From: Erodium maritimum
Lineage: Eukaryota > Streptophyta > Magnoliopsida > Geraniales > Geraniaceae
Length of the DNA stretch: 64,000 nucleotides
Direction: 5' to 3'
Assembly (NCBI GenBank): GCA_963921825.1
Contig: OY997596.1
Coordinates: forward strand, 36,819,932-36,883,931
Shown: positions 998-60,426 of the stretch, piece by piece
Numbering within the stretch: position 1 is the first letter of the stretch
How the letters are laid out: every line of letters starts with the position of its first letter
Notes under the pieces: generated by a model
Seen by the model: the letters and a program-made list of their open reading frames with translations, nothing else
Databases searched by the model: none
Told to the model about the DNA's origin: nothing
Translations under genes and position numbers: made by a program

Positions 998-1061
998 GGA
1001 GAGCAATCAGGTGCGAACCACCTGATTTGGTGCGAACCTGCGCACTGCGTGATGACCGTCC
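998..1061 (+). repeat. Left terminal inverted repeat of the giant MULE
   Basis: The repeat starts GGAGAGCAATCAGG and contains the 17-bp dyad CAGGTGCGAACCACCTG (1008-1024), whose arms CAGGTG/CACCTG can pair. GTGCGAACC occurs twice (from 1011 and 1030). MULE transposases bind inside the terminal repeats, so these repeated units are candidate binding sites (inference). Confidence 0.85.
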
Positions 1062-1450
1062 GATGTGAATTTCGCGATGGCGCTGATTTGAACGCGTCAT
1101 CAGTGGCACGCGTCGTAAATAAGTCGCGCGTGGGATTCATTTTAACTGATTTGCTATGGTTCGGGGGTATAAACGTAATTTTATCTACCCGTTCGCGCCG
1201 AAACGTTTCGTGCTCACCAAAACACTTGCAGAATCGAGTTTTTAGCGAAACGAACATTTCGGAATCTGATCTTTGAGCTTCCATTGCCTTGATTTTCGTC
1301 TCCTGTGTGATTTCGAAGTGAATTTCATTTGTTCATTGTTGAACTCTGGGTTTAATCGGTGAGTTATAATCTTTTGGTGTTTAGGGTTTTGATTCAATCT
1401 TTTTCATTTGTTTATTTAGCTTTTTGATTATGGTAATCCGTCTGTAGAGA
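1062..1450. promoter_or_regulatory. Left subterminal region, probable promoter and leader of the Ulp1-like gene
   Basis: The stretch is moderately GC-rich with several CGCG runs, then becomes AT-rich towards 1450. Overlapping reading frames on both strands here are about 100 codons long and look accidental. It lies between the terminal repeat and the first possible exon of the protease gene, the usual promoter position in MULEs. Confidence 0.4.
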
Positions 1451-1506
1451 ATGAAGAAGAAGGTTGCTAAATCTACAACATTATGCAACAGGGACACCGA
1501 ATCAGG

Positions 1507-2063
1507 TAATTTGAGAATATAGTGTTTGTAGTTTGCGGATTTACAGTTGCTATGTTTTCAGAGTGTTTGTGTTTCGCTTTTAGAGTACAACATTTCAATT
1601 CATATATGAAATTATTCAACTATGAGATGTTTTTGCTCTACTTTTGAGGAAAACCAAGTTGTTGGTTGAGGTTTTGGGTTTTCTATTTTGCGAATATATA
1701 GTATCTTGTTTGCGGGCACTGTTTTTCTGTTTTGCGAATAGTCAATTCTTGGTTTGAGAAACTGGTTTTTTGTTGTTTTATAATATGCGATATGTTGGTT
1801 GAGGTTAAGGATTATATGTTTTGCGGATATACGTACCCAGGTTTGAGAAATAACCTTTTCTTGGTTGAGATATGCAATATCTGGGTGTGAGGTTATTTAT
1901 TCACTGTTTTCGAATATGATGTATGTAGTTTGCGGGTATTGAATATCTGTTTTGCGTATAAACATACCCTAGTTTGAGGAACAGTTTTCCCTGTCTGAGA
2001 ATATGATGATTTTGTATATTGTCTGTTTTGCTGATATGCAAACCCTTGTTTGCGAATTGTAGA
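1507..2063 (+). other. Presumed first intron of the Ulp1-like gene, rich in TTTGCG motifs
   Basis: Possible donor AG|GTAATT at 1507 and acceptor TTGTAG near 2063. The interval holds numerous variants of TTTGCGGATA (TTTGCGAATA, TTTGCGGGTA, TTTGAGAAA) and one unit of the 117-bp repeat that recurs three times at 7165-7512. Splicing here does not give a clean reading frame, so the assignment is tentative. Confidence 0.4.
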
Positions 2064-3369
2064 TAAAACTCCGGATACAGTGCCTCCTCTTCTTTTAATG
2101 GAGAGGCTGATGTTGACGAAGGAAATGCGACTCTTTCTAATATGTTGAAGAAGCAGAAGTGTATTATGAATAAAGGTAAAAGAAGAGTTTCAAATAAAAA
2201 GAAGAAGGTAGCTGAGGTTCGTGAATCTCTTGATGGAGGAAGTTCTGTTGTAGTTGTCCCACCTGCTAAAGTCGGAAAGAAGAGAGGTGGAGAATTAGTT
2301 GTTGAGAAGAAGAACGTTAAGCGCACCAAGGGTTGTGAGTCCGATAGAGTTGTTCCGTTATCTGATGAGGTTGGCGTGGATGATGTTTTGAAGACCAGGT
2401 CATCTCCAAAGGGATTGGTTGAGTTGGTGGAGAGTTTGAATAAACACCAACAAGAAGCAGTGCGGGAAATTGGGTTTGGGCACATTCTTCATTTGGCTGT
2501 GAAGATCATTCCAAGCAAGATTGGATACTACCTGGTGTCTAAGTATAACCACCTTAGCTCATCATTGGGTTTGCCAGATGCGAAATTACGTATCACAGAG
2601 AAGGAAGTGCATGAAACTTTGGGCATTCAGAATGGTGTGCGCGACGTCATAGTCGATAAGTGGTCCACCCTGTGCACTGATGAACTTAAATTATGGCAGC
2701 GGCAGTTCAATACAAAAGACAAAGGCGAGATCAAGCGTCTTATAAGCAGTTGGTTGATCAGATGAAGACGCAAATTGAAGGGGGAGATGATTTCAAAAGA
2801 AACTTCATGATGTTGTTTGTGACTTGCATGATCGATTCGGGGAATGAGGGTTATGTGAATCAATCATGCTTCCGTTCTATTGTTGATGTATCTCACATAC
2901 AAGATTTTAATTGGTGCAAGTTTTTAGTCAAGAAACTTGTGGATACAAAACAAACCTGGTTAAAACAACCCGAAGGTTCAAAGAATTTTTCTGGATCAAT
3001 AATTTTCTTGTTGGTAAGTTTATTTTTCATTTTAACGTGTTGTATTTTATGTTTAATAAACCGTTATGTTATAGTCATGTGATATGTGTTTTTCTTTGAA
3101 TGATGCAGTTGTTTTATCTTGATCGTGTTGAAGTCAGCACGTGTGAGGTTCCTAGGGCGTGGCCCTCTTTGATTGGATGGAATACTGCATTGGTGAATAG
3201 AAGAGTCGGCGATGAAATATGTGTGATGCATTTGGAATGGGTCACATACGGATGGAGGGTCCTGCACGGGTTATGGTGGAAGAGAATGTTGCTCAGCATC
3301 CACCCCCTAACGTAAATAGAGATAATGAAAGGGGGGATAGAAATTGAGGAGATCCACCGGCCCCGAATA

Positions 3370-3389
3370 CCCCCCCCCCCCCCCCCCCC
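3370..3389 (+). repeat. Homopolymer run of 20 C
   Basis: Twenty consecutive C residues lie inside an exon of the Ulp1-like gene, in a proline-rich linker. Runs of this length are prone to slippage and to sequencing error, so the local frame should not be trusted. Confidence 0.9.
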
Positions 3390-3417
3390 GTTTCATAGCG
3401 AAAGGGGTTCTGCAGAG

Positions 3418-4092
3418 GTATTCTATTATTTAATTCATTTTTTTGGGGGGAATTATGTTTTTCAATTATATAGTGAGGTTATTGATTGACTTGTTTGCTA
3501 ATATGCTTTACCTAGTTTGCGGATAATGAATGTATGTTTTGCGAGTATGTTTTATCTAGTTTGCGGATAGTTAATTTATGTTTTGTGAGTATGCTTTACC
3601 TAGTTTGCGGATAGTGATTATATACTTTGCTAGTATGCGAACTCTGGTTTGAGAAACAGTTTTGAGTATATTCTGCATGTGATATGTGCGTAGGTTTATT
3701 GTATGAAAATATGCATATTTTGGTTTGCAGATGTGTTTTTTAGTTGATGCATACCCTGTTATTGATTGACTTGTTTGCTAATATGCTTTACCTAGTTTGC
3801 GGATAGTGAATATATGTTTTGCGAGTATGCTTTACATAGTTTGCGGATAGTGAATTTATGTTTTGCGAGTATGCTTTACCTAGTTTGCGGATAGTGATTC
3901 TATGTTTTGCGAGTATGCGCACTCTGGTTTGCGAATCAGTTTTGAGTATTTGCTGCATGTGATATGTGCATAGGTTTATTGTATGCAAATATGCACATTT
4001 TGGGTTGTAGATGTGTTTTGTAGTTGATGCATACTATGTGTTTTATTTGTTTGCATTTAATCTCATTAAATGTTTCTTTTTATTGTATTTAG
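3418..4092 (+). repeat. Ulp1 intron with a 280-bp tandem duplication of motif clusters
   Basis: A GT-AG intron (donor GAG|GTATTC, acceptor TTTAG|AGG) consists largely of two copies of a 280-bp unit starting at 3479 and 3759. Each unit has three TTTGCGGATA motifs spaced about 45 bp, followed by a TTTGAGAAA or TTTGCGAAT variant. This is the densest exact motif cluster in the element. Confidence 0.8.
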
Positions 4093-5950
4093 AGGATTGC
4101 AGAAAGGTTTTGATTAGCGGGGAATAAGTTTGCAGAAGGTTTTTTGGAATGACATCAGTTGTTGGTTGAAGGGCATATCGCCGATCCTAATACCGAGTGT
4201 TTCAAGGCAATGTCAACCCTGTTTTATGGTTTGACTGGGAATAAAAATCCCGAAGATGCCATGCCTGACACAAAAAGTGTGTTTCTGTCACAAGACTCAT
4301 GGTTTAATCTACCCGGGGTTATTGAGACCATTGAGAAATTGATTGAAGCAGCAACACGCGTTGGAGAAGGGTACAAAGGAGCAGAGAAGCCACCTGCTCG
4401 TGCCGTTACTCCACCAACATTCAGACTTCTTTCACCATCCCAAAAATCGTCTGCCAATGTTCTTTCACCACGCCTGCTGGATCCACTACATTGTCAAGCC
4501 CTGAATGCGATAATGTGGTTCAGAAATTGTTCGCAAGTAATGATGCAGCCCCTGTGGATAATATTGTTGCAGAAAAAACTGAGCCAGAAAAGAATAACTG
4601 CGTTGGTGATGAGTTTGACGCTATTTCTGTTGTTTCTGGTATTGGGAAGGAAGCTTGTGAGATGGTTGTTGATCATACAATCGGGAAACTTGAAGCTTCT
4701 GATGTTATTAAGAAATATGATTGTTGGGCTGTTGCAGTGCAATCAGACCCACTTACTATAGAAGGCAGTCAAGGAAATGTTAACGGGTCTGCGTCTGTCA
4801 ATGACTTTTGTCAAACACTTCAAGAGCAACCCGAGCCACTCAATATAATTGTTGTCGAACAAAATGTCAACAATGAACCACCTGTTAATCAAGCTTGCAA
4901 GACTCAACCCCCGCCACTTGTTACTGGACGGGTTGACCAAAATATCAATCGCTCTATTGGTGGGAAAGAGGTCCCTGAGGCAGTTGACGAGCATCCTGAA
5001 CTTGCAAAGGCAAGATTTCGTGAATCCATAGTCCAACGCCCTGGTGTCATACCTCTTCCTGCTAAAAAAGGCCCCGTGCATCCTCCTAAGAAGTCGACTG
5101 ATGGTGTTGGTCATGTGGAGTCTGGCTCAGTTATTAATCCACCGAAGAAGAGAGGTCCCGCTCGTGCACCCGGTAAGAAAGGCCCCGCTGCTGTCCCCGA
5201 GAAAAAATTACCCCGTACTGTTGCTGCAAAAAAAGATTAATGTGCTGTTAAGAAAAATCCCGTTGTTGTTAAGAAACGTGCTGCAAGTAGCAATAGTTTT
5301 ACGTCAATTGGGTGTAGCAAGGCATCTTTATTGAGGGAAACCTCAGTCAAACAACCTTTACCTCGTTTGATTGCACCGTCTAAATTTCTGTGTTCTCCGT
5401 ATGTTGATCGTCAAACAGATTATTGGTCCGATCTTTTGGAGGTTGAGGATTGTGTTGCTGATTGGGTGCTGAATATAAGCAAAAAGGAGGATTGGTAAGT
5501 AAAATATGTTTTTCCCCTTATTTTGTTTTTATATTTTATTTTTGCAAATACAGTGAATAGGCTTTTCTCTCTGTGAATGCAGGGATTTTATGTTTGAGTG
5601 CTCTGATAATTGTATTACCAAGGGGGGCTTTAATTCTTTCAAAAATGATGCATGGATTGAAGTGGAAACCATTAATGGGTGGTGTCAATATCTGACTCAT
5701 CTGGAAACTATCAAGAGTGATTCATCACCTAACCAGTTCTTCTTTTCAGCTTCTTTTAGTGTAAGCATAGTTTGCGCATTTTTTTGGTTGATTACGTTTA
5801 TAGTTTGAATTATTTTAATATGTTTTTGTTATTTATATGTTTATTTTGTAGGCTACGCTTTCGGAACATAAAAAAGATGTAGATTTTGACGATGTTTTCA
5901 AGATTGAAACTAAGGAGTTCCCTTCTTTTTCATGGAAGAAGTTGGACTTG

Positions 5951-6323
5951 GTAAGTACAATACATGGTTGGTTTTAGAATATGCAATATGTTGGTTGCGG
6001 TTAAGGTTTGTATGTTTTGCGGCTATACGCCCCCTTGTTTGAGAAATAACGTTTACCTGTTTGGGAATATGCAATATCTGGGTTGAGGTTATGGATTGTC
6101 TTGTTTGCGAATATGCTCTATCAAGTTTGCGGATAATGAATACATGTTTTGCGGATATGCGCACCCTGGTTTGAGAAACAGTTTCCATGGGTTGCTGATA
6201 ATGAATATCTAGTTTGCGGATAATGAATATCTGTTTTGCTGATATTGTAGTGAATGCTTGTATTATATAAAGCAATTTATACATTATATTAATATGATGA
6301 TGTATTTTATATATTTTTTACAG
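5951..6323 (+). repeat. Ulp1 intron with TTTGCGGATA cluster
   Basis: GT-AG intron (donor TTG|GTAAGT, acceptor TTACAG) inside the catalytic part of the gene. It contains three exact TTTGCGGATA copies between about 6120 and 6230 plus variants. The neighbouring introns (5495-5582, 5761-5851, 6462-6556, 6752-6830) are short and motif-free. Confidence 0.75.
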
Positions 6324-7010
6324 GTTTTCATGGTTGTTTTTAAGAGCAATCACTACACACTTTTATGCATCGACATGAAGAAGGGAAATTCAGAAATTAT
6401 TGACAATGTCAAAGGAACGGTTGATGACGATATTCGTTATGAAAAAATACACTATACATTGGTACGTATTCTTCTCTCATTGACTGTGTTTGATTACTGT
6501 CTATCTATTAATTTCTTTTTTTATTTATTTTTCTTTGGTGTTTTTGTGTTGCGTAGAGGTCTAAAATTCTCAAGGTCATAACAAAAACTGATAAAGCTCT
6601 AGCTCAGAAAATTTTCAAAGGTAAGATTGAACGGTTCCATGTACCATGGGAATCTAACGATAATCATATGGATTGTGGGGTGTATGCTATGTGGCACATG
6701 GAATCGTATCTTGGCAATGGGAATTGGGCAGGAGAATTGGCCGTTAATGATGTAAGTTAAACCAACAATTATTTCTTTGTCAGTATATAACAATGAGTAT
6801 AGATTTGATCTTTAAATTTTGATTTTGTAGGCTGCACAAATTGAATTATTGAGGAAAAGATTCCTCCTTAAGTTGGTCACATTTGAGAAGAACAACCTGT
6901 GGCTAGAAATTGAGGAGAATATCAAAGATTATTTCAAAAAGAAGAAGACCACATTCAAATTTAGTGTCAAGTATAAAGCCTTATTACCATGCGAACGCCA
7001 TAAAGCTTAG

Positions 7011-7951
7011 TGAATTACTCTTTTTGATTACTGGTGTTTGTTTTCAGAAACGACAATTTTGTTTGTTTGAGAATTTATGATATATTGTTTGAGAATAATC
7101 TGTGTACTGTTTTGAGAATTTATAAGATCTTTTGTTTGTGAATATGCTGTATTTTAGGATAAACAAGTTGTTGGTTGAGGTTATGTGTTTTCTGTTTTGC
7201 GAATGTATAGTGTCTAGTTTGCGGGTACTATTTTTCTGTTTTGCGAAGAGGAAATCCTTGGTTTGCGAAACTGGGGTTCCTTTGTTGGTTGAGGTTATGT
7301 GTTTTCTGTGTTGCGAATATATAGTGTCTAGTTTGCGTGTACTATTTTTCTGTTTTGCTAATAGTCAATCCTTGGTTTGAGAAACTGGGTTTGCTTTGTT
7401 GGTTGAGGTTATGTGTTTACTCTTTTGCGAATATATAGTGTCTAGTTTGCGGTACTATTTTTCTGTTTTGCGAATAGTCAATCCTTGGTTTGAGAAACTG
7501 GGTTTCCTTGTTTCAGAGTATGCAATATGTTGGTTGAGTTTCAGTATTGTATGTTCTGCGGATATACGTAACGTGGTTTGCGGAATAACGTTTACCTATT
7601 TGAGATATGCAATATTTGGGGTTGAGGTTTTGGATTGTCTTGTACGAAGAATACACTGTAGTTCTGTTTGATTTTACCAATGATAAGATATGCCTTAATA
7701 TGTTAGTAACTTCAGTAATTTTTGTTTTGAGAATAATCATATCTTGGTTAACGAATATAACCATACGCGTTTGAGAATACAGAACATGTCGTTTGCGAAT
7801 TAAATATATGTGACTTTCACAGTGACAAGCAGATACTAGTCATCCATTCACTGAGAAACCAAGTTTTCAAAAGACAAAACAAAAACATCAAAAGACGATT
7901 GACATGATAATAGGGAAAATATAACTACATCCTTCATGGGTCGGATGTGCC
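7011..7951 (+). repeat. Intergenic motif array with 117-bp tandem repeat (three units)
   Basis: Between the Ulp1-like gene and helical gene A1 lie three tandem units of about 117 bp (about 7165-7512). Each runs from TTGTTGGTTGAGG through two TTTGCG variants to TTTGAGAAACTGGG. Further variants continue to about 7790. From about 7790 the sequence matches 20600-20765, marking the left edge of the duplicated gene block. Confidence 0.75.
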
Positions 7952-8207
7952 CTAGTCCACTTCTACCTCAATGGTTTTGAAGAAGTCCTGAATCTTTTCC
8001 AGTGTCGCCATCATCTTGTCCCTATCTTCCTTGTGCTTTTCAGTCGAGTTGCTCATGTCAAGCACTTGCAGTTCATTGGCAAGGCTTACCACCTTCTCCT
8101 GCATCAACAAAAAATGGATCTGGATTAGTGCCAACCTTATTTTACGATACTGCATTACCGACTCCATAGCGGCTTCCTCCATCTGTAGCACCCTGTTGCA
8201 ACGTTCC
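7952..8207 (-). pseudogene. Helical gene A1, 3' piece (split by the gypsy element)
   Basis: Minus-strand piece encoding the C-terminal part of a small helical protein closely similar to A2 (20749-21096). Shared segments include LALIQ, EKVV(N/S)L, VLDMSN and KEDRDKMM/NEDRDKMM, then a (Q)(N/D)FFK end. It stops at 7952. The upstream part lies 11.5 kb away at 19689-19767, on the far side of the gypsy element, and the 5-bp duplication GTTCC marks the break. Before insertion the gene would have been about 115 codons, like A2. The predicted structure is two amphipathic helices, possibly a coiled coil. Function unknown. Confidence 0.8.
8203..8207 (+). repeat. Target-site duplication, left copy (GTTCC)
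   Basis: GTTCC directly precedes the TGTCACGCCCC end of the gypsy element and is repeated at 19689-19693 just after its other end. A 5-bp duplication is the expected size for Ty3/gypsy integrases. Confidence 0.9.
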
Positions 8208-11192
8208 TGTCACGCCCCAATTTCAGCGAACCGAACTAGGGACGTGAACGTTTAAAAAGTTACAATACTTGAAGCCTGTTTTCATTAAATCACTTTAAAA
8301 GCCAGTTTAGTTCCACAAAATAATAATAATATTTACATCTCAAAAAATAATAGTCCCAACACTTGGACAAAAGACGAGGTACACGTCACTAGACTCAAAC
8401 ACCCAGAAACCCGCTTCAAGCTCTTCAAGCTTCAGAAGCTCACCTAGTCCAGACTGCGAACGGTACCTGTAGGAAAAGCAGCTAGGGGTGAGCGTTCGCT
8501 CACCACCACAGATAACAGAATGACTACGGCATACTTAGCAGACAAAGCCGGTGACACCAACAACGACTCAAAAGACACACACACGACCAATACTTTCCTC
8601 AACTGACTCAACATTCGGACACGTGATGTAGACCCCACATAACGATTGACGACCTCCTCCAAAGACACGACTGACAACCACACAATACCAAACAAGATCA
8701 CAAAGGATCGCGAACCAGCTGCTCAGTAACCAATCTCTGTATCTCGCCCTTTCCGATCCCAGTCAGGCCAGGCGGTCGACCTGTCGCGCAACTTCTCCCG
8801 ATCCCAGTCGGGAGGCTAACCCACAACCTCTCCGCTTCACCCGATCCCAATCGGGTGGTTAGCCACACCCGCGCGTCCTTCCCCCGATCCCAGTCGGGGA
8901 GCTAGCCCACAACCTCTCCGCTTCTCCCGATCCCAGTCGGGAGGCTAGCTACACCACACAACCTCCACCAGTATCCAGTAACCAAACACAATCACAAACA
9001 AGGTTCAACAGACAGTAACGACACCAGTCCCAAACTCCACAGGCACTCAAGGCCAACAAGACACCAATAACCAAACACGGGTTCAACAACCCTACGGGCC
9101 CTCATGGCCACCCAAGACACCAACGGTAAAGTACGGGTTCACAACCCCACGGGCACTCACGGCCACCCAAAACACCAAAACGACAACACGGGCTCACATG
9201 ACCACCCAAGACTCAGCAATAAATAACACGGGCTCTCAAGGCCACCCAAACTCGACAATAAAAAACACGGGCTCTCAAGGCCACCCAAACTCGACAATAA
9301 ATAACACGGGCTCTCAAGGCCACCCAAACTCAACAATAAAACAACGCACAACAACCTCCGGCATAATCGATGCCTCCAACAGTCCTAAGATCACTAGTTT
9401 CACAAACAACCTCCGGGCATGGTCATATGCCTCCAGTAATTCAATTATCGTTAAGTTCTCTGCTCCTACGACACTACTAAGTGTCACATACGTTCCCAAT
9501 AATTTCCAAGTTCCCGTAACATGCTTTTCTAACATTCGATAACCTAAATAACCCACGACACCCCGGTGTCACATGCAATTCTACAGTTAACTTTCTCTAG
9601 TCAGGGCCGAGATCCGGCTACTTTTCCCTACCTCGTATATAACTCCAAAACTGCTCCACTAAACCTCGACGTGAACCCAGTCACAAGCCGAGCCTCCCTT
9701 TGCCTCGGTCCGCAGCACGATCTAAAAGAACACAAATTCCAAAGCACTTTTAACTAGTAGGAATAAACCGGAAATTAATAAACTTAACGCCCAAACGTAA
9801 CCCCGAAAATGTCGATCACTCCCAAACTTCCTAATTACTCGACATTGTCGATAAAGGACCCGTAAAGGCCCGATTCGCCCGACATGGCGAATCTGCCCTG
9901 GTTTTGTAAATTGCCTTCCGGGGCTCCAAAAGCCCCTGTTTTCGTTTCTACGGTCTTAGAATAGTTCAAGGAACCCAATGCACTTGACAGAATCGAATTC
10001 CGACTTCCGAGTCAATTAATTAACGTTTAAAGTTTCTCAAACCCGTTAATTACAACTTTTCCAAATTAATTTCGATTTTCGATTCGGTTAAGGATAAATG
10101 GTCCGGGGAACGTTTTAAACCACCCGAACGTTGAAACACGAGCACCCGAGCACGTGGGCCCCACCCGACCCACTTGGCCGTGGGCCCTAGGGTCTTTTAG
10201 GGATCGGCCCACCTTGGTGGTGGCTAGCCCTAGCTCCGGCCAGCCACCCCGAGGTCTGGCCAGCCCTGGCCAACTCCGGCCAGCACCGGCCAGGTCCGGC
10301 CAGCCTCCAAAAGGCACGGCCAGCCACCTCACACGGCCGGCCGGCCACCCCACACGGTGGCCGGAGCTCCCCGAGCTCCCGGTCACCGGAAAAAGTTCCA
10401 AAACCGCTCAAAAACGTCTCCAACGAACCCCCAACCTCACTACAACCCTAACTCATAGTTTACCCAAACCCTAGCTTTCAAGAAATTAACCAAAATGACG
10501 ATCGGTTTAGTGCTTACTCGAGAGGAAGACGAGGGGAACGATGTTGCTCCTTGTCTTGAGACGATCCAAGGGTTGGATATCAAACCCTAGCCCAACTTCT
10601 TCTCTTTTCTCTCTTCTTCTTCTTCTCCAAACTCTCTCTTCTTTTCTATTTCTATTTCTCTTTTTTTTTTCTTTTTGGTTAGTGATGGCCGAACCCCCCT
10701 ATAACCCCTCACCACTCATTTTCCCCCCAAAACCCAACACCACCACTTGGTTGACAAGTGGCAAGGTGGGTCCCCAACCCTCTTGGTAAAATATCTACTA
10801 GATATTTTCCAATAATCAGATTCGCGAAAATCGGACGTTTCGGGCCCCGAACGGGCACTTTTCCCAAGAAATTACGAAACTTGGCGGGCTACAAGGAAAC
10901 GGCTCAAATAAGACCGCTGCGACGACGGCTAAGCTTTTTGGATCCAAAACGGTCCTCGAATGGACCAAAACGTCGCTCGGTTGACTTTTCCAGTGAAAAG
11001 TCAATATTTCCCAAATTGATCAGAAAGTTGCCATGAGTCCCCTAGAATTCATTTTTGTCGATAACGGGGTCAACTTAAGTCCGGTATGACTATCGGGGTC
11101 AATTTAGGTTAAGTTAAGTGTATGTCTTAAATTTTTTAAATTTTCCTGTTTTTCGCAGGTTTGACTGGCGTTGACCGGAAGTGGTTATTACA
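8208..11192 (-). repeat. Long terminal repeat of the gypsy element (downstream LTR in element orientation)
   Basis: About 2.98 kb, bounded by TG...CA in element orientation. It contains four or five tandem hairpin units built on CCCGATCCCAGTCGGG (about 8740-8955) and three or four short tandem units of an ACACGGGCTCTCAAGGCC type (about 9190-9345). A GGCCAG/GGCCGG-rich stretch lies at about 10200-10390. Confidence 0.93.
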
Positions 11193-11199
11193 GTCTACC

Positions 11200-16821: not shown

Positions 16822-16824
16822 AGC

Positions 16825-20600: not shown

Positions 20601-20748
20601 GTCTTTTGCGAATTTAATATATATTACTTTAACAGTAGAATAGGTAGATACTAATCATCCATTCATTGAGAAAACAAGTGTTCAAAAGACAAAACAAAAA
20701 CATCAAAAGACGATTGACATGATAATAGTGAAAATATAACTACACCCT

Positions 20749-21096
20749 TCATGGGTCGGATGTGCCTTCGCCCTCTGCTATCGATATGCTTTTGAAGAAG
20801 TTCTGAATCTCTTTCAGTGTAGTCATCATCTTGTCTCTATCTTCGTTAAGCTTTGTAGTCCCGTTGCTCATGTCAAGCACTTCCAGTTCATGGATAAGGT
20901 TTACCACCTTCTCCTCCATCAGAAAAAAGTGGCATTGGATTAGTGCCAACTTTACTTTGCGAATCTCCATTGCCATTTCCATAGCGGCTTGCTCCATCTC
21001 ACGCATCTTCTTACAATGTTCCTCTATGGTATGTTCCATAGCTTCTTCGGTGCAAACGTTACCTTCAACTTTGGTGCGTTTCCTATTGGGGGCCAT
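20749..21096 (-). CDS. Small helical protein A2 (115 aa), intact
   Basis: Unrecognised family. The ORF has 115 codons and starts MAPNRKRTK, a basic N-terminus that could be a nuclear signal. Residues about 25-105 look like two long amphipathic helices with Met/Leu/Glu-rich heptads, the first containing KLALIQCHFFLMEEKVVNL, followed by VLDMSNGT and KMMTTLKEIQNFFKSI. The VV(N/K)L and D(M/I)S(N/T) motifs recur in the other small minus-strand genes of the MULE. A TATAAATA box lies about 95 bp upstream. It is divergent from the acidic gene at 21601 across about 500 bp. It may form coiled-coil dimers or bind a partner (inference). Confidence 0.75.
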   Translation of the reverse strand: MAPNRKRTKVEGNVCTEEAMEHTIEEHCKKMREMEQAAMEMAMEIRKVKLALIQCHFFLMEEKVVNLIHELEVLDMSNGTTKLNEDRDKMMTTLKEIQNFFKSISIAEGEGTSDP

Positions 21097-21600: not shown

Positions 21601-21912
21601 ATGTCACCATATAGAAAGCACTGTAGTAGCGGTGAGGAAGAGGTAACTTCAAAAAGACGAAGGCTGATTTCACATGGTGATGAAGAGGATTGCCCTATTA
21701 TCATCAGTGATGATGCCGATGATGATAAAGAGGAGGAGATAGAAAATGGGGAGGAAGACGATGATGGGTATAATGGTGATGTGGAAGAGGATGATGATGA
21801 GGAAGATGAAGAAGAAGATTATGGTTATAATGGTGATGTTGAAGAGGATGAAGAAGAAGAAGAAGAAGATGATGATGACGAAGAAGAAGACTGGGAGAGT
21901 GAAGATTGGTGA
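21601..21912 (+). CDS. Acidic protein with basic N-terminal patch (103 aa)
   Basis: The ORF has 103 codons. Residues 1-30 include SSGEEEVTSKRRRL, a possible nuclear signal. Residues about 38-103 are almost entirely Asp/Glu with two GYNGDVEED repeats and end in WESEDW. It could resemble acidic chaperone or activation-domain proteins, but simple composition makes homology unsafe. A truncated copy lies at 20227 and a longer relative at 29037. Acidic nuclear proteins can bind histones or basic partners; here this is only a suggestion, prompted by the basic N-termini of the helical proteins. Confidence 0.65.
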   Translation: MSPYRKHCSSGEEEVTSKRRRLISHGDEEDCPIIISDDADDDKEEEIENGEEDDDGYNGDVEEDDDEEDEEEDYGYNGDVEEDEEEEEEDDDDEEEDWESEDW

Positions 21913-21984
21913 ATGTAACTTTTGCCACAAGTTATTTCATTTTTAGGATATAGGGCTCTCTCTTTGTGACTATAGAACTTCTTT

Positions 21985-22215
21985 TTTTAGGGGATTCAAA
22001 TATGGACTTCTAGTTTGCGGATACATAGATCCTGATTTGCTTATAATGTTAATTTATTTCTCTTTACTTGATGTTTGCGGATACGGACTTGTAGTTTGCG
22101 GATACTGTTATTATGTTTCACGAATATAATTATAAACTGTAGTTTACAAACACAGAGATCCTAGTTTGCGGATACAGAGATCATGGTTTGCTGATAATAA
22201 TATTCTGTTTCGCGT
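21985..22215 (+). repeat. TTTGCGGATA motif cluster downstream of the acidic gene
   Basis: Four exact copies (near 22015, 22076, 22097, 22163) with spacing of 20-65 bp, plus variants such as TTTGCTGATA and TTTCGCG. It matches the cluster at 20330-20600. Confidence 0.75.
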
Positions 22216-22348
22216 GTAACACAAATCATGGAATTATATATAACTTGAAAGTGAAATATAAACGATTGTAAGGAAAAAGATTTTTTTAATTACTTTAAAC
22301 TGGTTAAGAACAGACAAAAGGAATCGAAGAGAATAGAGTTTGCTACCC

Positions 22349-22666
22349 CTATACCACCAGTTTCATAGCCTTGTTCACCGCTAAGATCACTTCGGTTATC
22401 TTCCTGGTGAGGGCTGTGTTTGCAAGCACCTCTTCGGTGCTCATGTCAGTGCACAGCTCGTCGCCAACATCCATGGCCAAAATTTCAAGCTCAAGCTCGA
22501 TCTCAGAAAGCTTACGCTTGATTGCATTGAAGCTCATCACAAACTTCTCGTGTTTGATGGGACGCTTTTGTTTTCTGTCCTTCTTGTTCTTCTCCTTCAG
22601 CTTCCTTTTGCGTTCGTCGAGTTCATCTTCATAGCTTTTACGCTTCCTGCTGCTTGATGACGCCAT
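22349..22666 (-). CDS. Small helical protein B (105 aa)
   Basis: The start at 22666 (MASSSSRKRKSYED) is preferred to an in-frame ATG at 22807 because a TATATATA box (22733-22740) lies between them. Residues 7-38 are strongly basic (RKRK, DERKRKLKEKNKKDRKQKRP), a likely nuclear signal. Residues 40-105 form a helical region with LSEIELELEILAMDVGDEL, TDMSTEEV and TEVILAVNKAM. The C-terminal half resembles protein E (30038-30352). The DMS motif links it to A1, A2 and D. Function unknown. Confidence 0.7.
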   Translation of the reverse strand: MASSSSRKRKSYEDELDERKRKLKEKNKKDRKQKRPIKHEKFVMSFNAIKRKLSEIELELEILAMDVGDELCTDMSTEEVLANTALTRKITEVILAVNKAMKLVV

Positions 22667-22732
22667 TTTTTCATAGTAAAATTGGGTATTCGAAGAGTTG
22701 AGGGATGAGTATAGAAGGATACAGTATTTGGG

Positions 22733-22740
22733 TATATATA
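22733..22740 (-). promoter_or_regulatory. TATA box of helical gene B
   Basis: TATATATA about 68 bp upstream of the preferred ATG at 22666. Confidence 0.65.
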
Positions 22741-22859
22741 GGGGAACATGTAGGGCATCGTGGGTTAGTGGAGCAATTAATTCTCCCCCACGTTTCCATG
22801 CTTTCAATATTTGATTGGTCTACCACAAACCGTTTCACTTCCCTTTTGTACGCAAAACG

Positions 22860-23260
22860 AAAGTAGTAAATTCTCAAATCCTTATATATTTTTTAGTAAA
22901 CAAAATTTGAAATATTCGCAAACAATTTGTTATATTAAATTCGTATAAATGAAACAGTCTATATTAAATCCGCAAGACCAATTGTCTATATCCGCAAACA
23001 GAAAAAACCAAATCCGCAATCGATAATCTTCAGCAGTCTACTTCTTCTTCTTCCTATTCTTACTCAGTGGGGCAGGTATTTGTATCATGGTCTTGCATTG
23101 TGTGTGAACAATATATTATATTAAATTTCATATAAATAAAAACATGTCCAGAAATGAAATTTATTAATTCGGAAAACTCAAACATCTGTATCCTCAAACA
23201 GTCTGTATTTATTCGCAAAACTTATTGTCTATATTCACAAACAGAAACATTGAAATCCAC
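22860..23260 (-). repeat. Minus-orientation motif cluster and old duplicate of the transposase 3' end
   Basis: The motif here appears mainly as its complement (TCCGCAAAC, TTCGCAAA). The stretch 23035-23110 (a short CTTCTT run followed by GGTCTTGCATTGTGTG) is a diverged duplicate of 23270-23497, the transposase 3' end, so a tandem duplication of about 240 bp has occurred. Confidence 0.65.
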
Positions 23261-23280
23261 AGTTGAAAATATACATCATT

Positions 23281-23281
23281 C

Positions 23282-23313
<32 letters not shown>

Positions 23314-26300
23314 CTTCTTCTTCTTCTTCTTCTTCTTCTTCTTCTTCTTCTTCTTCTTCTTCTTCTTCTTCTTCTTCTTCTTCTTCTTCTTCTTCTTCTT
23401 CTTCTTCTTCTTCTTCTTCTTCTTCTTCTTCTTCTTCTTCTTCTTCATATTTAGAGGGCAGGTCCTTGTGTCATGGTCTTGCATTGTGTGGCATGTAGCG
23501 CATAGCCGTTTTCGCTTGTTACTAGCATTGATTGCCTTTTCTTTATTACTGATCATTCTACTCCCAGATCGCAAGCGAGAGCCCTTGGTGTTTGTGATAT
23601 TTGGTGGCTGGACAGTGACTATTTCTGGTAATTTGATCCCTGTCACCGATGCTATGAAACTTGTTCTATTGTGTCTATTCTCATTCACTATGTCATCCAC
23701 CGTTTTCACTCTGTATCGATTTAGAGTGTCCAACAATCCTCGAATACTTGAAATTGCTGCATCTTCTGTCCCAATCATTTCAGTAAACCTGGTTTTCACT
23801 GCATCCATAACTTCATCGTCCTTCAGACTAGGACCTTCAGGTGCAACACCATTAGAAGACAATGTAGCTGTCAAGTTTGTGTCTTTACACCATCTCGGGT
23901 TTACCAGCGTCCTAGGAATCTTCTTTAACGTTGTGTTTTGCAGCGCAAAGAATATGTGAGAACATATATAGCCCGTTGTTAGAAGCTTGTTGCAATTGCA
24001 CTCAAAGTTGTTTGTACTCATCGTCCAAGTCACCCTGAATTCCTTATCATCTTTAATAATCGACGAATCCCTGACTTTATAGACAATTGTGGCATCTACG
24101 GTGTCATCCATGCCTGGCAAGCTACAGCGGTTGAGAGCGTAAACTATATGCTTTTGTATGTCAGCAAACACAGTATGTGTGTATACAGTCCAAGCATCTG
24201 CTTCAAACCACGTGTTTGTCTTCAGCACTGGATATGAATTGTAGCTGTGCATCATAAGACTGAAATGCTCATTCTTTGGTTCTCTATCACCACTCCACAC
24301 CGCCAGATCAAGTGAACAAGGTTTAGGTACTGATCTGTGAGTTGTTGATAGGCCCGGTTGGCTGATTCAGAGCTTGATGTTGTTCTCATAAACAACCCCA
24401 TCGGGAAATCCCTATGGTATGCTGGGATCCAATTGTGTCGCAGATCGAATATGCCATTGAGCCAAGTGTTGTCCTGCAAATTGAAGTCTTCAATGATGCT
24501 AGCCCACTCTTCATCAAACTCATCAGGGCCTATAAGGTTGTTGTTACTATGGAATCCAATCTTTTCTCAAAGTCTGTATCATTTGTTATACTTCCAGGCA
24601 CCTGTAACATTTTTCGTAAGATTTGTAAACTCGAACAAATAAATAATAGTAATTGACAATACTGTGGCATATGGATATTTTGTTTTCATAGATTGAGAAA
24701 ACAGACATAACAGTTTGAGAATAGATATAAACTCATCGCATAGTAGTTAACTATGAGAACCATATTAAGAATAAAACGTTTTGAGTAAACAAGCATTACA
24801 AGATGTGGATACAGAGTATATGATTTTCTTATAGAGACTGGCCTTAAGACGAATCTTTCATAATGTGCCACATGCAGAGTTTGTGCTTAGTGTCTGTCAT
24901 GACTTTAGGTATTGCAACTTTCATTGCTGGGTCTTGATCTGTCACCAGATACATTGGTTGCTTCCCATTCATCTCTTTCAGAAAAGCGTTAAACATCCAA
25001 GTGAAAGACTCGATATCCCCATGTGTTACCAGTCCCAGCCCAAAAGTCACAGATTTGTCATAGTTGTCTACTCCTGTAAACGGACAAAATGGCATCGAGT
25101 ACCTACAAAACATCAATCGTTAATAAAGAATAATGTTTAAAATTTCTTTTTCAATGAATTAGCGAATACGAGTAATACTTACTGGTTAGTCCTGTAAGTT
25201 GTGTCAAAGGAAACATTATCCCCGTAAAGATCGTAATTCTTGATAGCTATTTCATCACACCAGAATAGCTTAGTGAGGCTTCCGCTTGTGACAACATCGT
25301 ACTCATAGTAGAACTTGTTGTTGGCTACCTTCTTGTCACGGAACTGGTCAAGGATTATCTGAACATCACTTCCTCCAGTATAGGCTTTCAAGTCCCTGTG
25401 GTAGTTGAAGAAATCTTGCTTCAAAGCTCCAACATGGTTGGGGCCTCCGCGTATTTCACTGATTAGTCTGTGTGCCTTTGAGGGGCCTATTCCTAATCTC
25501 TCGCAAAAGTTCATATACTCAACATGGTTGCCTTCCATGTGTCGGTTACCTCGCATCTCATGTCTGTGCTCCGCTCCAACCATAGGGTGGTTATGACCTC
25601 CAACAAATTTTGATACTTTGTATCCTAATTCCTCCGAAACAAATGTGAACCTTATCATTGCTTCACAATTAATTCTTTGAAAGTTGCGGACTGTTTTGTT
25701 CGGGGATCTCACCCTGTTTGGAGCATACCATGTACTTTAGCTTTATGTTGTTTGTTTTATCCTTCTTCTCCGTAGACCTTCTTGTAGTGAATCCAGACAG
25801 TCTAGCGTAATTTTGGTAGAAATCTATCGCCTTATTCAGTGTCTTGAATTCCTTTCCTACAAACGGCGTTCGTTCAGGCTGGCAGGATGGCAAGTATATC
25901 CTGGTTCCTCCAGCAGAAAACAGAACAGTGTTTTGGAGATCTGATTCTGCAGTACAATCACTGTCTGTGCCTGCAGCTGATATTCATCGAAATAAGGATC
26001 AGTTTGAGGATGTAATAATTTCGGATTGCATATACAGCACACATAGAATCAGATAGTTATAATATACTCAAATTGATACAAAGGCAGTAGTATATAGTAA
26101 CAGGCAAAGTAGATTATTTATCCTTTGCGGAAATAAGCAAGTTAGTTTGCGGATACTGCACATCTAGTTTGAGAGTTTGTCATGGAGGAGATTTTATATA
26201 TTGTTTGAGAAGAAACAAATATTTTATGTCGCTAAATATCGTACAACACAAACTACTGTTTTGAGTATTTAGGCATTCTAGTTTACGGATAAAAAAACCA

Positions 26301-26406
26301 CCATGATCATGACGTTTTGGTCAACTAGAAAAACAGAATTTGCAGCGATTCTAGAAGAAAATCAATTTTGTTGAATAGATCTATACTTACATATTGTAGA
26401 TGACAT
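23281..26406 (-). pseudogene. FAR1/MULE-type transposase gene, frame-damaged
   Basis: Exon 1 is 26391-26406 (MSSTI) and intron 1 is 25977-26390 (donor T|GTAAGT, acceptor CAG|CTGCAG). Next comes a FAR1-type zinc-finger DNA-binding domain (TPFVGKEFKTLNKAIDFYQ, VGGHNHPM). A second intron is 25103-25182, and a third probably ends at 24602. The core has the MULE DDE residues: Asp in SFDTTYRTN (25203-25205), Asp in VTDQDPAM (24937-24939) and Glu in SSSESANRA (24366-24368). A SWIM zinc finger (CNCNKLLTTGYICSH, about 24000) and a zinc knuckle (CATCHTMQDHDTRTC) follow. The last 55 or so codons are lysine, from a (CTT)n run. Frame changes near 25715, 24535 and 24300 are not explained by splicing, so this copy is probably inactive. 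It likely mobilised the element. Confidence 0.85.
23284..23446 (+). repeat. (CTT)n microsatellite, about 54 units
   Basis: An uninterrupted CTT/AAG run at the 3' end of the transposase gene. On the minus strand it encodes a lysine tail of about 54 residues before the stop. Long pure runs mutate quickly, so the length is probably variable between individuals. Confidence 0.95.
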
Positions 26407-27149
26407 CTCGATTTGTGTATTGGTTGATGTGATAAAATCCGACGATATCAATCAATATCTCAGGCGATCTCTGTTGCGATTTCCGACGATCTCACGGTGC
26501 GATCTGTCGGTGCGATCTCAGGTGCGATCTGAGTTTTTTTTTTGGAATCAAGTTTCGAAGAATCATAGTTTTTTTAACCTAGTCCGTGATTTGGATTTCT
26601 TCGAGAAAACTCCGATCTAGGGTTGATACTTGGAAAAATCGTAGAGATTTTTTCGAGAGACTTTCTAACTCGGTGTTTGATTCGATTTTTGATTTGTTGT
26701 TTAGGAACTTTCCGTTTTTGAATTTCGAGGTTTTATAGAGGAAGTTGGGGTAAATTCGCACGCTAATCTAGGACCGTCGATATATTATTCGCAATGGACG
26801 AACCCGATTCAGTTTTGAAAGTTCAATCGAAACATTTTATTTTATTAGCGAATAGATTCTTTGCGTATATTTCATATTTAGTTTGCGGATTTTTAATGTC
26901 AAGTTTGCGGATATTTCAGAACTAGTTTGCGGATATTTCATATCTAGTTTGCGGATTGTTTATTTACAGTTTACGGATACTGTCAGTCATGTTGAGAATA
27001 CAGAAAGCATGGTTTGAGAAAATACAACATCTAGTTTGATAATATTCATAGATTCATTAGGAAAAGATGGTGTGTGAAACACCAAACAAAAACATAAAAG
27101 ACGACATGCATGAAAAACTAGATACCACCAATCTTCGTCTAGATGTGGC
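26407..27149. other. Transposase 5' region and motif cluster
   Basis: The first 350 bases upstream of the transposase exon contain GCGATCT-type repeats (about 26468-26530), likely leader or promoter. From about 26850 to 27030 follow two exact TTTGCGGATA copies (near 26907 and 26930), two TTTGCGGATT and further TTTGAGAA variants. No gene is seen. Confidence 0.55.
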
Positions 27150-27419
27150 TTAGGAATCTACAGTTATTTTTCCGAGGAATTCTTGATACTCCCTCATTTT
27201 CTCAAGCATGCGTTCTTTCGAAGCTCTTTCTTCTGTGTTCCAGGTAAGGTTTTCGTCCGTTTCGATTTCAGCCAGGAGCTTGACCACCTGCGCATCCATC
27301 ATCAGCATATTGTATTGGATTTTTGTGAACTTGAGCTTCCATAAATGGTGGATGGAAGCCAAACGCCTGTCTTCATCCTCTGCATTCATGCGAGCCCATT
27401 CAGCATTCATAGAGGCCAT
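27150..27419 (-). CDS. Small helical protein C (89 aa)
   Basis: The ORF has 89 codons and starts MASMNAEWARMNAEDEDRR. It is predicted largely helical. The segment KFTKIQYNMLMMDAQVVKL aligns with KLALIQCHFFLMEEKVVNL of A2, followed by a Glu-rich second helix (EERASKERMLEKMREYQEFL) like the A2 tail. The DMS motif is not conserved here. A TATAAATA box lies about 65 bp upstream (27481-27488). Function unknown. There is no adjacent acidic partner. Confidence 0.65.
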   Translation of the reverse strand: MASMNAEWARMNAEDEDRRLASIHHLWKLKFTKIQYNMLMMDAQVVKLLAEIETDENLTWNTEERASKERMLEKMREYQEFLGKITVDS

Positions 27420-28184: not shown

Positions 28185-28451
28185 TTAGATGCCCTCTTGT
28201 ACAACGCTTCCAATTATAGTCTTATACAACACGAGTGTCTTCCTCGTGCTCTTCACGCACTCCTTGTGTTCTTCATCCGCGTTGGATATGTCTTCTTCAT
28301 ACAATTCAACCATCAGATTGACCACCCTGTCATGTGCTATCATCAAATGGGACTTGATGATAGACATCTTCAGATGTCGAAGCTCACGCATGGACCCATG
28401 ATGTTCTTTGTCTAGAACTTCCATTTTGAGTTTTTTTGATGATGATTCCAT
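28185..28451 (-). CDS. Small helical protein D (88 aa)
   Basis: The ORF has 88 codons and starts MESSSKKLKMEVLDKEHHG. The segment KMSIIKSHLMIAHDRVVNL matches the A2 helix, and EEDISNADEEHKE matches VLDMSN followed by a charged stretch. It is divergent from the acidic gene at 29037 across 585 bp, the same layout as A2 with its acidic partner. A TATA-like TAAATATA lies about 72 bp upstream (28523-28530). Function unknown. Confidence 0.7.
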   Translation of the reverse strand: MESSSKKLKMEVLDKEHHGSMRELRHLKMSIIKSHLMIAHDRVVNLMVELYEEDISNADEEHKECVKSTRKTLVLYKTIIGSVVQEGI

Positions 28452-28522
28452 TTTCGTATGTATGATCTAATAATTCAGAAGAGATGTGAGTGTGAATAAT
28501 TTTTTATCGGTGATAGAGGGGG

Positions 28523-28530
28523 TATATTTA
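28523..28530 (-). promoter_or_regulatory. TATA-like box of helical gene D
   Basis: TAAATATA on the minus strand, about 72 bp upstream of the ATG at 28451. Confidence 0.55.
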
Positions 28531-29036
28531 TAGGGGTATTGATTTAGAGTATTTGGTGGGACACGTGCCAAGCACGCACATAATGTGATGAAAGCACATT
28601 TTTGCAAATAGAATGTCCATTATTCGCAAAACATCATTCTCATTTCCGCAAACTGGTAAACCATTTTACGTAAAACAAAATGATTATTTCCCCAAACTAG
28701 AATTTTGTATTTTCAGAATATTAATTTCCGAAATTCAACAGGTTAGAACACGTGTCAAGCATGCAGTAAAAAGTAAGGTAATCATGATTTTAATTTTTAA
28801 TCTGAATACACGCAACCGTCGTTTCATTTTTGATCTGACTACAACCGCCTTTTCATTTCGCCTTTTCATTTCAATATCTTATGTCATCATTACAAAAATC
28901 TCTTCGCGCCAAACGAAAAGCTTCCCAAATTAATGGCGTCGTTCCATTTCCCCAAATTTTTTGATACCCTTTTGATATCTTTATATTTAAACACAAATCA
29001 ACTATTTTCTCATCATCCCTATCGTAGTAGGTACTC
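28531..29036. promoter_or_regulatory. Divergent region between helical gene D and long acidic gene
   Basis: Contains motif variants as complements (TTCGCAAAA, TCCGCAAAC near 28620-28650), a CACGTG G-box at 28749-28754 and a TATATTTAA box near 28981 for the plus-strand gene. Short blocks are shared with the A2/acidic intergenic region. Confidence 0.5.
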
Positions 29037-29669
29037 ATGTCATCATCTCCCAAGTCTCCATCTATTCTGTATTTTAACAGTGATGGAGACAAATGGCAAT
29101 CTTTCGAATGCAAGTCTCCACCATCACAAATCTTCAGTAGTGATGATGACGACGACGACGTCTGTTCAAAGAGGCGCAGGCTGAATCCTTCCTCCTCCTC
29201 CTCCTCCTCCTCTGATGATGATGACCCTCTCATCAATGAGTACGACATTCCTCAACCGAGGGATCCTGATTATGAATCACCGCCGGATGAAGATGAAGAT
29301 GAAGAGGACAATGAGGAAGAAGATGAAGAATAAGAGGAGAATGAGGAAGAAGATGAAGAGGATGAAGAGGAGAATGAGGAGGAAGGAGATGCAGAGTTTG
29401 AACCAGAAAAAGAAGAACCTCCAACCACACCTGCTCCCGCACCGGTTGCCGCACCTGCTCCCGCAGAGGATGATGAAGAAGACAGTTGTTATGTTGATGA
29501 AGATTGGCTGGATGATGATGAAGAAGATGTCCATGCAGAGGATGATGAAGAAGGGCAAGAGGGAGAAGAGGAAGAAGAAGACAACATAGACCCATATGGG
29601 GAGGATCCTGAGGAAGGAGTTGTTGAAGATGAAGAAGATTTCTGGGATGATGATGATGATGATGCTTAA
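29037..29669 (+). pseudogene. Long acidic protein gene with one internal stop
   Basis: It opens MSSSPKSPSILYFNSDG and carries a DDDDDD-x-CSKRRRL patch like the 103-aa protein, a serine run, then an Asp/Glu-rich region. TAA occurs at 29331-29333, but the same frame continues to TAA 29667-29669 with matching acidic composition (PAPAPVAAPAPAEDDEEDS, then a final run of Asp). So the gene was about 210 codons and has one nonsense change, or ends early at 98 aa. Both versions keep the basic patch. It pairs divergently with helical gene D. Confidence 0.65.
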
Positions 29670-29739
29670 TTACTGTAGTTTTTTAATTTTCTTTTTTGTG
29701 GAAAGTAAATATTTCAACATATGAAATCAATCATGTTTA

Positions 29740-29900
29740 AGCTTATTTTTGGTTTGTGGATACAGTTGTTTTCGTTTGCAAATACAAGAACCCCAGTTTG
29801 CGTATATAATCATTCCAGTTTGCAAAAAAGTAAACCAAAATGAAAGCCTTTTGCGGATATCGACATAATAGTTTGCGGATGAAGAATAAATCGTTTGCAG
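29740..29900 (+). repeat. TTTGCGGATA motif cluster
   Basis: One exact copy (near 29850) plus TTTGCGGATG, TTTGCGTATA and TTTGCAAATA variants between the long acidic gene and helical gene E. Confidence 0.65.
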
Positions 29901-30037
29901 AAAAGCTAAATAGAGCAAATGACATTTATCGGAAATCTTTTCATTCATAACACATGTGGAACAAAAGAGCACCATACAAAAAAAAGTAGAAGAAAGCCAT
30001 CTTCTTCTAGGTCGTTCATTGACGCTTTGGTACCCAA

Positions 30038-30352
30038 CTATAACATACCTATAGCACGATCCAGTGCCCTGTTAACTTCTGTCACTCTGGACAAGAGGTC
30101 TTTGGGTATAGTTATGTAGTCACATGACATGTCGTTATCGGCGATTTTGGCGGTCTCAACCACAAGAAGATGGATATCAAGTTTTGCCTCCAGCATCATC
30201 ACCTTTAAGTTCTTGTGCTTCATTGTGACCTTCTCAACATTGAGAAGAATGTTGTATTTTGCGAATATGACATCTCCCCTCTTCAGCAGCTCTTCCTTTG
30301 TTAGAAGATCGATGTTCGTGCTCTTACCCTTCTCGGTGTTGCAAGCATCCAT
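30038..30352 (-). CDS. Small helical protein E (104 aa)
   Basis: The ORF has 104 codons and starts MDACNTEKGKSTNIDLLTK. A helical body (VEKVTMKHKNLKVMMLEAKL) is followed by DNDMSCDYITI and LLSRVTEVNRALDRAIGML. The last 40 residues resemble protein B (TRKITEVILAVNKAMKLVV), so B and E form a subgroup. The DMS motif links them to A1, A2 and D. A TATATATA box lies about 80 bp upstream (30429-30436). Function unknown. Confidence 0.7.
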   Translation of the reverse strand: MDACNTEKGKSTNIDLLTKEELLKRGDVIFAKYNILLNVEKVTMKHKNLKVMMLEAKLDIHLLVVETAKIADNDMSCDYITIPKDLLSRVTEVNRALDRAIGML

Positions 30353-30428
30353 GGTTTAAAATTGGGAGAGATGTGAGGTTTGCTAAGAGTTGATGTTGAG
30401 TTTATGTTTTGTTTGCACAGTTTTTCTG

Positions 30429-30436
30429 TATATATA
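30429..30436 (-). promoter_or_regulatory. TATA box of helical gene E
   Basis: TATATATA on the minus strand, 77-84 bp upstream of the ATG at 30352, in a TATATATAGGC context as for gene B. Confidence 0.6.
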
Positions 30437-30499
30437 GGCAAAATGTAGGGTTTAGTTGGATTGGTGGGTCACTAAACATGTTTAATCTTTAATTGTTTC

Positions 30500-31135
30500 A
30501 TCTGTATCTCATATGAGGATATAGTTTTTTCCGTTTGCGGATAACGATATAATCTTCTGCGGGTGACTAACAAATCGTTTGTGGATAAGCTAAAGAGGAC
30601 AAATCCGTTTTTTATATTTAGTTTGCAGAATTGTTTTATGAGGATACAGTTAATGTCGTTTGCGAATAGAGGAATCCCAGTTTGCGAAAGTTGACAGAAT
30701 ACCAAGAAAAACATTTTCCTTTGTAACATAGGTTGAACAAAAGAGGAGCGTACATAGGGTGTTTTTTGAGGTTTTATTTTTTATTGTTTGAGAATATAAT
30801 GGAATCTAGACCAACTAAACCAAAATGAAATCTGTTTGCTGATATTGATATATCCGTTTGCGGATAAAGAACAAATTGTTTACAGTTACACTAAAGAGGT
30901 CAAATGATAGGCAAGGAAAGCAGACATAATTTTTTTTTTTATTATACTGCTATTATTTTTTGCATATATAGAAGAATTTGTTTGAGGATCAAAATTTTCT
31001 AATTTTTTTTCAGTTTAAAACGACAAGCATTGTGTTTATCAGTTTTTATTTACGACAATTTGGTCTAAATTAAAATCTCAGAAGAACAGGCTTAGATTGC
31101 GGATATAATTATTCTGTTTTGCGAGAGAATCTGGG
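30500..31135 (+). repeat. Right-end motif clusters of the giant MULE
   Basis: Exact TTTGCGGATA near 30534 and 30855, with variants (TTTGCGAATA, TTTGCAGAA, TTTGAGAATA, ATTGCGGATA) scattered from 30535 to 31110. No gene is seen. The region leads into the right terminal repeat. Confidence 0.65.
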
Positions 31136-31244
31136 CCGCGCGCGTAATTAAAAATGGTAAATTCCATTTTTGCCCCTGAGAAGAGGCGTGTGGCCCAGAA
31201 TTGGTTTAGCTCTGAGCCGTAGATCGCGCGCGCTGCTGATAGAT

Positions 31245-31307
31245 AGACGGTCCTGATGCAGTTCGCAGGTTCGCATATTACAGGTGGTTCGCACCTGATA
31301 ACGTCCC
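31245..31307 (-). repeat. Right terminal inverted repeat of the giant MULE
   Basis: Read on the minus strand it begins GGGACGTTATCAGG and carries the same dyad CAGGTGCGAACCACCTG (31281-31297), then TGCGAACCTGCGAACTGC and GGACCGTC, matching the left end. Just inside lies a GC-rich stretch with several CGCG runs (31134-31235), as is common in subterminal MULE regions. Confidence 0.85.
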
Positions 31308-60417: not shown

Positions 60418-60426
60418 AAAAATTTA

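Follow-up and report, generated by a model that had tools for sequence, protein, structure and literature searches.

Self-targeted anti-silencing by transposons has been shown experimentally for the VANDAL elements of Arabidopsis. According to the available text of PMC5735166, DUF1985 is present in the VANC proteins of these elements, VANC21 binds YAGTATTAY, the short motifs are arranged as same-orientation tandem repeats in introns and non-coding DNA, and the targets of VANC6 bear AGTTGTCC/AGTTGTAC. The accessible part of a 2026 review (PMC13317346) describes KIU genes as VANC genes with a Ulp1 domain and the same mode of action, this domain being conserved in eudicots. The present analysis concerns a 64,000-nucleotide stretch of Erodium maritimum DNA (assembly GCA_963921825.1, contig OY997596.1, positions 36,819,932 to 36,883,931; referred to as the window), which contains at positions 998-31307 a multi-copy transposon of the Mutator-like element (MULE) type with a retroelement nested in it. 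The core of this transposon resembles a variant of the published VANC/KIU anti-silencing elements, and its accessory proteins, small helical (S) and acidic (A), appear to be new. Self-targeted anti-silencing is considered the most likely mechanism because of the architecture of the element and its resemblance to the systems in the literature, and the probability that this MULE carries its own sequence-specific anti-silencing system, with the S and A proteins as accessory partners, is estimated at about 0.5.

The element codes for a Ulp1 protease, a FAR1/MULE transposase, six small helical proteins that form two groups, two acidic proteins and one acidic remnant, in the order U (the Ulp1 protease gene), S1/A1, S2/A2, S3, transposase, S4, S5, A3 and S6; all exon borders are our own models. 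The U gene (1451..7010, plus strand) was modelled without RNA support, from open reading frames (ORFs) and GT-AG borders, as about nine exons, the borders of which are also seen in another copy of the element, C2c. A Pfam analysis of the joined exon translation has revealed the Ulp1 C48 domain PF02902 at the C terminus (E 7.8e-6). The N-terminal region, for which AlphaFold gave no usable model (predicted local distance difference test, pLDDT, 37), is a distant relative of a protein that carries the name DUF1985; three relatives of U were found in the protein collection, two from Saponaria and one from Heracleum, and among their UniRef names are one DUF1985 (P0001) and one Ulp-like. The transposase gene (23281..25985, minus strand) is also divided into exons and encodes the MULE transposase domain PF10551 (E 9.7e-21), preceded at the N terminus by FAR1 (PF03101) in two pieces, one above the cut-off (E 1.5e-6) and one below it (E 3.7e-5); it also has a CxC...CxH stretch read as SWIM-like, without a Pfam match. 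The original prediction made for this stretch had named both a Ulp1-type protease and a FAR1/MULE transposase, and these domain matches confirm the two genes. In the window, U and the transposase gene carry reading-frame shifts relative to other copies.

The introns and intergenic DNA of the element contain arrays of GTTTGCGGATA with a 22-bp period, a feature overlooked in the original prediction. In de novo counts TAGTTTGCGGAT occurred 17 times in 18.8 kb, against about 0.003 copies expected, and was absent from 32 kb of flanking DNA. When up to 2 mismatches were allowed, 86 GTTTGCGGATA sites were found in 10,155 bp of non-coding DNA (8.5 per kb) and only 2 in 8,671 bp of coding DNA (Fisher p 9e-21, the sites not being independent of each other), with one further site in the retroelement and two in the 32 kb flank. 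Thirty neighbouring same-strand pairs are exactly 22 bp apart and 9 are at 44 bp, and 83 sites are grouped in 12 blocks, compared with a mean of 2.45 and a maximum of 6 in 100 shuffles; 11 of the 12 blocks show a single orientation. Arrays on the plus strand are located in U introns 1 (1505..2053), 3 (3331..4092) and 6 (5950..6324), between U and S1 (7011..7951), A1 and S2 (20326..20748), A2 and S3 (21913..22348), the transposase gene and S4 (25986..27149), and A3 and S6 (29670..30037), and from S6 to the right end (30353..31307). The orientation is reversed in the two regions upstream of S3 and S5, namely the array between S3 and the transposase gene (22667..23280) and three sites between S5 and A3 (28452..29036). 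No GTTTGCGGATA site was found in the S1-A1 and S2-A2 divergent gaps or in the left 450 bp.

The element is bounded by imperfect inverted termini at 998 and 31307 (GGAGAGCAATCAGGTGCGAACC and GGGACGTTATCAGGTGCGAACC), and local alignment of the ends places the left terminal inverted repeat at 998..1025 (plus strand) and the right one at 31280..31307 (minus strand), as had been proposed. Both adjoin a (TA)n tract, a TATATA tract directly precedes the left end in 8/8 cases (L001-L008), and a target duplication, which in MULEs measures 8-11 bp, is not delimitable within the (TA)n tract.

Five of the small genes are open ORFs on the minus strand: S2 (20749..21096), S3 (22349..22666), S4 (27150..27419), S5 (28185..28451) and S6 (30038..30352). 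The sixth, S1, is also on the minus strand and is split into a 3' part (7952..8207) and a 5' part (19689..19767), so the predicted number of six small genes with one of them split was correct. BLAST linked S2 with S4 and S5, and S3 with S6; S1, S2, S4 and S5 were aligned as group I and S3 and S6 as group II. Homology between the two groups is unsupported, with a profile comparison probability of 0.3%. The S proteins have about 88-115 amino acids; S3 is basic (isoelectric point 9.5), and S5 is predicted to fold as a two-helix hairpin (mean pLDDT 88) that gave no match at E <= 0.001 in a fold search against the PDB. The profile searches suggested in the original prediction were equally empty: a Pfam scan of five small proteins gave nothing above the cut-off, and neither group had a homologue at E <= 0.01 in a collection of 5.8 billion proteins that included plant proteins (479 and 3246 candidates). 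Three acidic genes had been announced, of which only A2 (21601..21912, plus strand; 103 amino acids) is open; A1 (20227..20325, plus strand) is a remnant that matches A2 over the first 33 codons or so, both in the window and in copy P1, and A3 (29037..29669, plus strand; about 210 amino acids) has an in-frame stop near 29331. Aspartate plus glutamate amount to 53% of A2 and 46% of A3, which have SKRRRL in common; the KRRRL of A2 resembles a nuclear localization signal. S1/A1 and S2/A2 form a tandem pair with 86% identity over a 300-base stretch, and S1 of copy C5a differs from the window's S2 with a proportion of synonymous differences (pS) of 0.195 and of nonsynonymous differences (pN) of 0.154. 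The nine small genes are therefore not all intact, S1 being split, A1 a remnant and A3 interrupted by a stop.

Searches of the genome (763 Mb, 40 contigs) were carried out with the ends and with the small genes. The left 603 bp gave 334 candidate matches, of which the best 40 were scored (91-100% identity), and the right 608 bp gave 391 candidates, the best 40 of which yielded 65 matching pieces, 40 of them main right-end matches. The comparison of both terminal repeats proposed in the original prediction showed that ends and small genes occur together. Among these best matches, S6 lies within 3 kb of 32/40 right ends and S4 within 20 kb of 28/40; 27/40 left ends have a correctly oriented S4 or S6 within 60 kb (21 with S4, 16 with S6), and 0/40 have an S4 in the wrong orientation. 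This co-occurrence rules out that the two ends belong to different elements. Some of the unpaired ends are expected, since only best matches were compared, and deletion derivatives account for others. For S4 and S6, the best 150 of 671 and of 506 candidate genome matches, respectively, were scored. For 110/150 best S4 matches the nearest same-strand S6 is at most 40 kb away and on the correct side, and for 0/150 it is on the wrong side within that distance; in 87/150 it is within 6 kb, with distance peaks near 2.9 and 3.95 kb. Frames are free of stops in 118/150 S4 matches (in-frame stop in 32/150) and in 138/150 S6 matches (stop in 12/150), values that overestimate intactness because only best-scoring matches were used and a frameshift beyond the matched part would escape notice. 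The recurrence of these genes and their open frames rule out that they are chance ORFs.

Eight further copies were read wholly or partly (P1, C2a, C2b, C2c, C5a, C5b, C3a and C7a), and the expectation that copies share one gene set held only in part. P1 has the complete set in the same order, with several genes broken, and C2c, read to just beyond S6, has U, S1, S2, A2, S3, S4, S5, A3 and S6 in order, its alignment lacking the part equal to 23.1-25.1 kb of the window, which is most of the transposase (MULE and SWIM-like part). Less complete are C5a (partly read), in which S3 is absent, and C2b (partly read), with apparently one S-A unit instead of two. Internal deletions have left C5b, C3a and C7a with about 6.8, 4.6 and 3.5 kb and without the interior, and in the fetched part of C2a the left end was seen together with retroelement-like DNA and nothing else. 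Motif sites with at most 1 mismatch number 45 in P1, 40 in the fetched part of C2c and 43 in the window; the deleted C3a, C7a and C5b retain 12, 10 and 19.

The retroelement nested in the window copy (8208..19688, minus strand) is foreign to the transposon. It has two long terminal repeats of about 2.9 kb each (approximately 8208-11192 and 16825-19688), is flanked by the 5-bp duplication GTTCC (8203-8207 and 19689-19693) and, by our reading of its ORFs without a domain search, would belong to the Ty3/gypsy superfamily. S1 is split because of this insertion, and once the insertion is subtracted the transposon proper measures about 18.8 kb, which replaces the giant MULE of some 30 kb previously assumed. 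Retroelement-related DNA also occurs in C2a, C2b, C2c, C5a, P1 and the locus L053 (G000:C1:124285600-124293599), and the genes that it disrupts are S1 (window) and S4 (L053); this retroelement may insert often into this MULE. Outside the element, an inverted repeat pair (89%) lies on either side of the MULE (672-786 and 31409-31523), from which the MULE may be located within or between other repeats. A short fold-back repeat is present in two copies (34976-35490 and 60408-60915; 95-100% over the reported pieces), and ORFs resembling an exostosin-type glycosyltransferase and a lectin receptor kinase, read without a domain search, are found at 31815-34758 and 41055-43259. Other terminal-repeat families of the same genome start with ATCAGGTACAAAC, mostly at (TA)n tracts (C5b near 8460 and 12212, P1 flanks, L002 and L007), and one of them has TAGTTTGC close to its end.

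Constraint on the encoded proteins is clear for S4 alone. Compared with five more distant copies, S4 shows pN/pS values of 0.30-0.45 at pS 0.27-0.34; these copies lack the first codons of the window's gene and a start codon there, and they may start elsewhere. Against four nearer copies, one of which has a stop, pN/pS ranges from 0.53 to 1.51 on few changes, and within the subfamily the values are scattered from 0.27 to 2.38, also on few changes, and are uninformative on selection. Ten S6 copies (62-70% identity) gave gap-free alignments over the entire length. A stop is present in two of them, the ATG is missing from a third and two hardly differ from one another; pN/pS among the ten ranges from 0.26 to 1.74. 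In L053 the S4-S6 stretch has 90% DNA identity, with amino-acid identities of 78% for S5 and 62% for S6, which implies that S6 evolves fast or is swapped between subfamilies; L053 is possibly a mosaic copy.

The likeness to the VANDAL/Hiun elements that carry VANC or KIU is that of a MULE that encodes a DUF1985-like protein, to which a Ulp1 domain is joined here as it is in KIU, and that has a short motif repeated in tandem, in the same orientation, in introns and elsewhere in its non-coding DNA. Unlike in those elements, the period is 22 bp, the motif is different and longer, S and A genes are added and the target is (TA)n; VANDAL21, moreover, carries VANA, VANB and VANC. VANDALs are defined by a VANA-type transposase without FAR1. 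The VANDAL row in the accessible part of PMC6446971 lists no FAR1, which the present element has, and the absent or degenerate terminal inverted repeats of VANDALs are not matched here, with the reservation that some VANDAL-group elements do have such repeats according to the same text. The element may thus work like a KIU-type VANDAL and yet fall outside the group by its transposase and, with that reservation, by its termini. In Jittery-type MULEs FAR1 is likewise N-terminal to the MULE domain, and the SWIM-like stretch is a further likeness; the plant Jittery sub-group is listed in the available text of PMC6446971 with one ORF, in contrast to about ten here. Ulp1 within a MULE is also known from melon, rice and grapevine, in melon including elements with terminal inverted repeats, and the accessible text of PMC2528002 mentions no S/A set or motif arrays in them. 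Pack-MULEs consist of captured host fragments and have no transposase, unlike this element, which has its own transposase gene and S proteins that lack a homologue in the protein collection. The literature searches showed no description of a gene set of this kind, and none was known to the original prediction, and the eudicot results of Sasaki et al. 2022 could lessen its novelty; what that prediction had missed is the resemblance of the DUF1985-like Ulp1 protein and the arrays to VANC/KIU. The idea of a self-contained accessory system was not supported, and functions can only be proposed for the set.

In the proposed mechanism, the FAR1/MULE transposase would cut and paste the element into (TA)n tracts, and U, with its DUF1985-like region and Ulp1 domain, would act as the VANC/KIU proteins of Arabidopsis VANDALs do. 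We infer that a protein of the element, U or one of the S proteins, would bind the GTTTGCGGATA arrays in introns and intergenic DNA and lift silencing from the element's own copies only, the S proteins serving as helical-hairpin oligomerisation or adaptor subunits and the acidic proteins, with their putative nuclear localization signals, as activating or histone-binding effectors. Several results weigh against self-targeted anti-silencing. DUF1985 is absent from the Pfam matches of U itself, and its relatives match PF09331 only below the cut-off (P0003, E 0.0043; P0002, E 0.18) or not at all (P0001). The FAR1 transposase and the clear terminal inverted repeats are not those of VANDALs, and C5a and C2b show that the set is not whole in every copy. 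The dN/dS ratio of the ten S6 copies against the window is 0.77-1.08, pN/pS is 0.91 for S5 and 0.79 for S1/S2, and between close copies the divergence of coding DNA (1.93%) and of other non-coding DNA (2.00%) is alike and neutral-looking. Within the motif, divergence between close copies at CpG columns is 4.2%, not lower than the 3.3-4.9% of the surroundings; at non-CpG columns it is 1.36% against 1.9-2.2%, a difference that comes partly from the choice of sites. Recent constraint on the motif is not demonstrated, because its divergence is barely below that of the surroundings at non-CpG columns and not below it at CpG columns.

This slight conservation, limited to non-CpG columns, would also suit arrays that are functionless decay products of ordinary tandem repeats, and tandem repeats expand readily in the introns of transposable elements. 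Decay is nevertheless unlikely, since one and the same core is shared by 12 separate blocks, occurs in either orientation along the element and is almost missing from coding DNA, the retroelement and the flank. The arrays could instead be binding sites of the transposase, with FAR1/MULE proteins coating the element and joining its distant ends while U, S and A aid transposition. The FAR1 DNA-binding domain of the transposase and the sites kept by the deleted C3a, C7a and C5b are in line with this, as are motif-like GTTCGCAGGTT and GTTCGCATATT on the reverse strand of the right terminal region, each 4 mismatches from the core, a distance that has no control; the spread of the arrays through introns and internal intergenic DNA, beyond subterminal DNA, and the empty left 450 bp make it a doubtful explanation. 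That the S and A genes are captured host pieces or passive cargo without a role, as in Pack-MULEs, is improbable. Capture of host genes is common in MULEs (PMC6446971 and PMC13317346, in the parts available), stops occur in part of the S4 and S6 matches (32/150 and 12/150), the S6, S5 and S1/S2 ratios are near 0.8-1 and C5a does without S3, all of which would fit cargo; the order of S4 and S6 held at 110/150 best S4 loci, the mostly open frames, the S4 ratios of 0.30-0.45 at pS 0.27-0.34, the two internal paralogue groups and the lack of an outside homologue of S argue the other way. Within the anti-silencing reading, S and A might form a second, modular self-recognition system, in which the six paralogous hairpin proteins would combine on the 22-bp arrays (about two helical turns), recruit the acidic effectors and keep only the copies of their own family open; the setting or reading of family identity would then be the reason why S6, S5 and S1/S2 change rapidly although most of their frames are open. 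We consider this extension rather unlikely.

If self-targeted anti-silencing is confirmed, the strategy would extend to a FAR1-type MULE with terminal inverted repeats in another plant, and two orphan protein groups present at more than 100 loci could show what VANC-type proteins need for the removal of methylation; the S and A proteins are short, so binding and methylation tests would be easy. The element is also an example of a DNA transposon whose roughly ten genes stayed together as it spread, with at least 150 scored S4 matches among 671 candidates.

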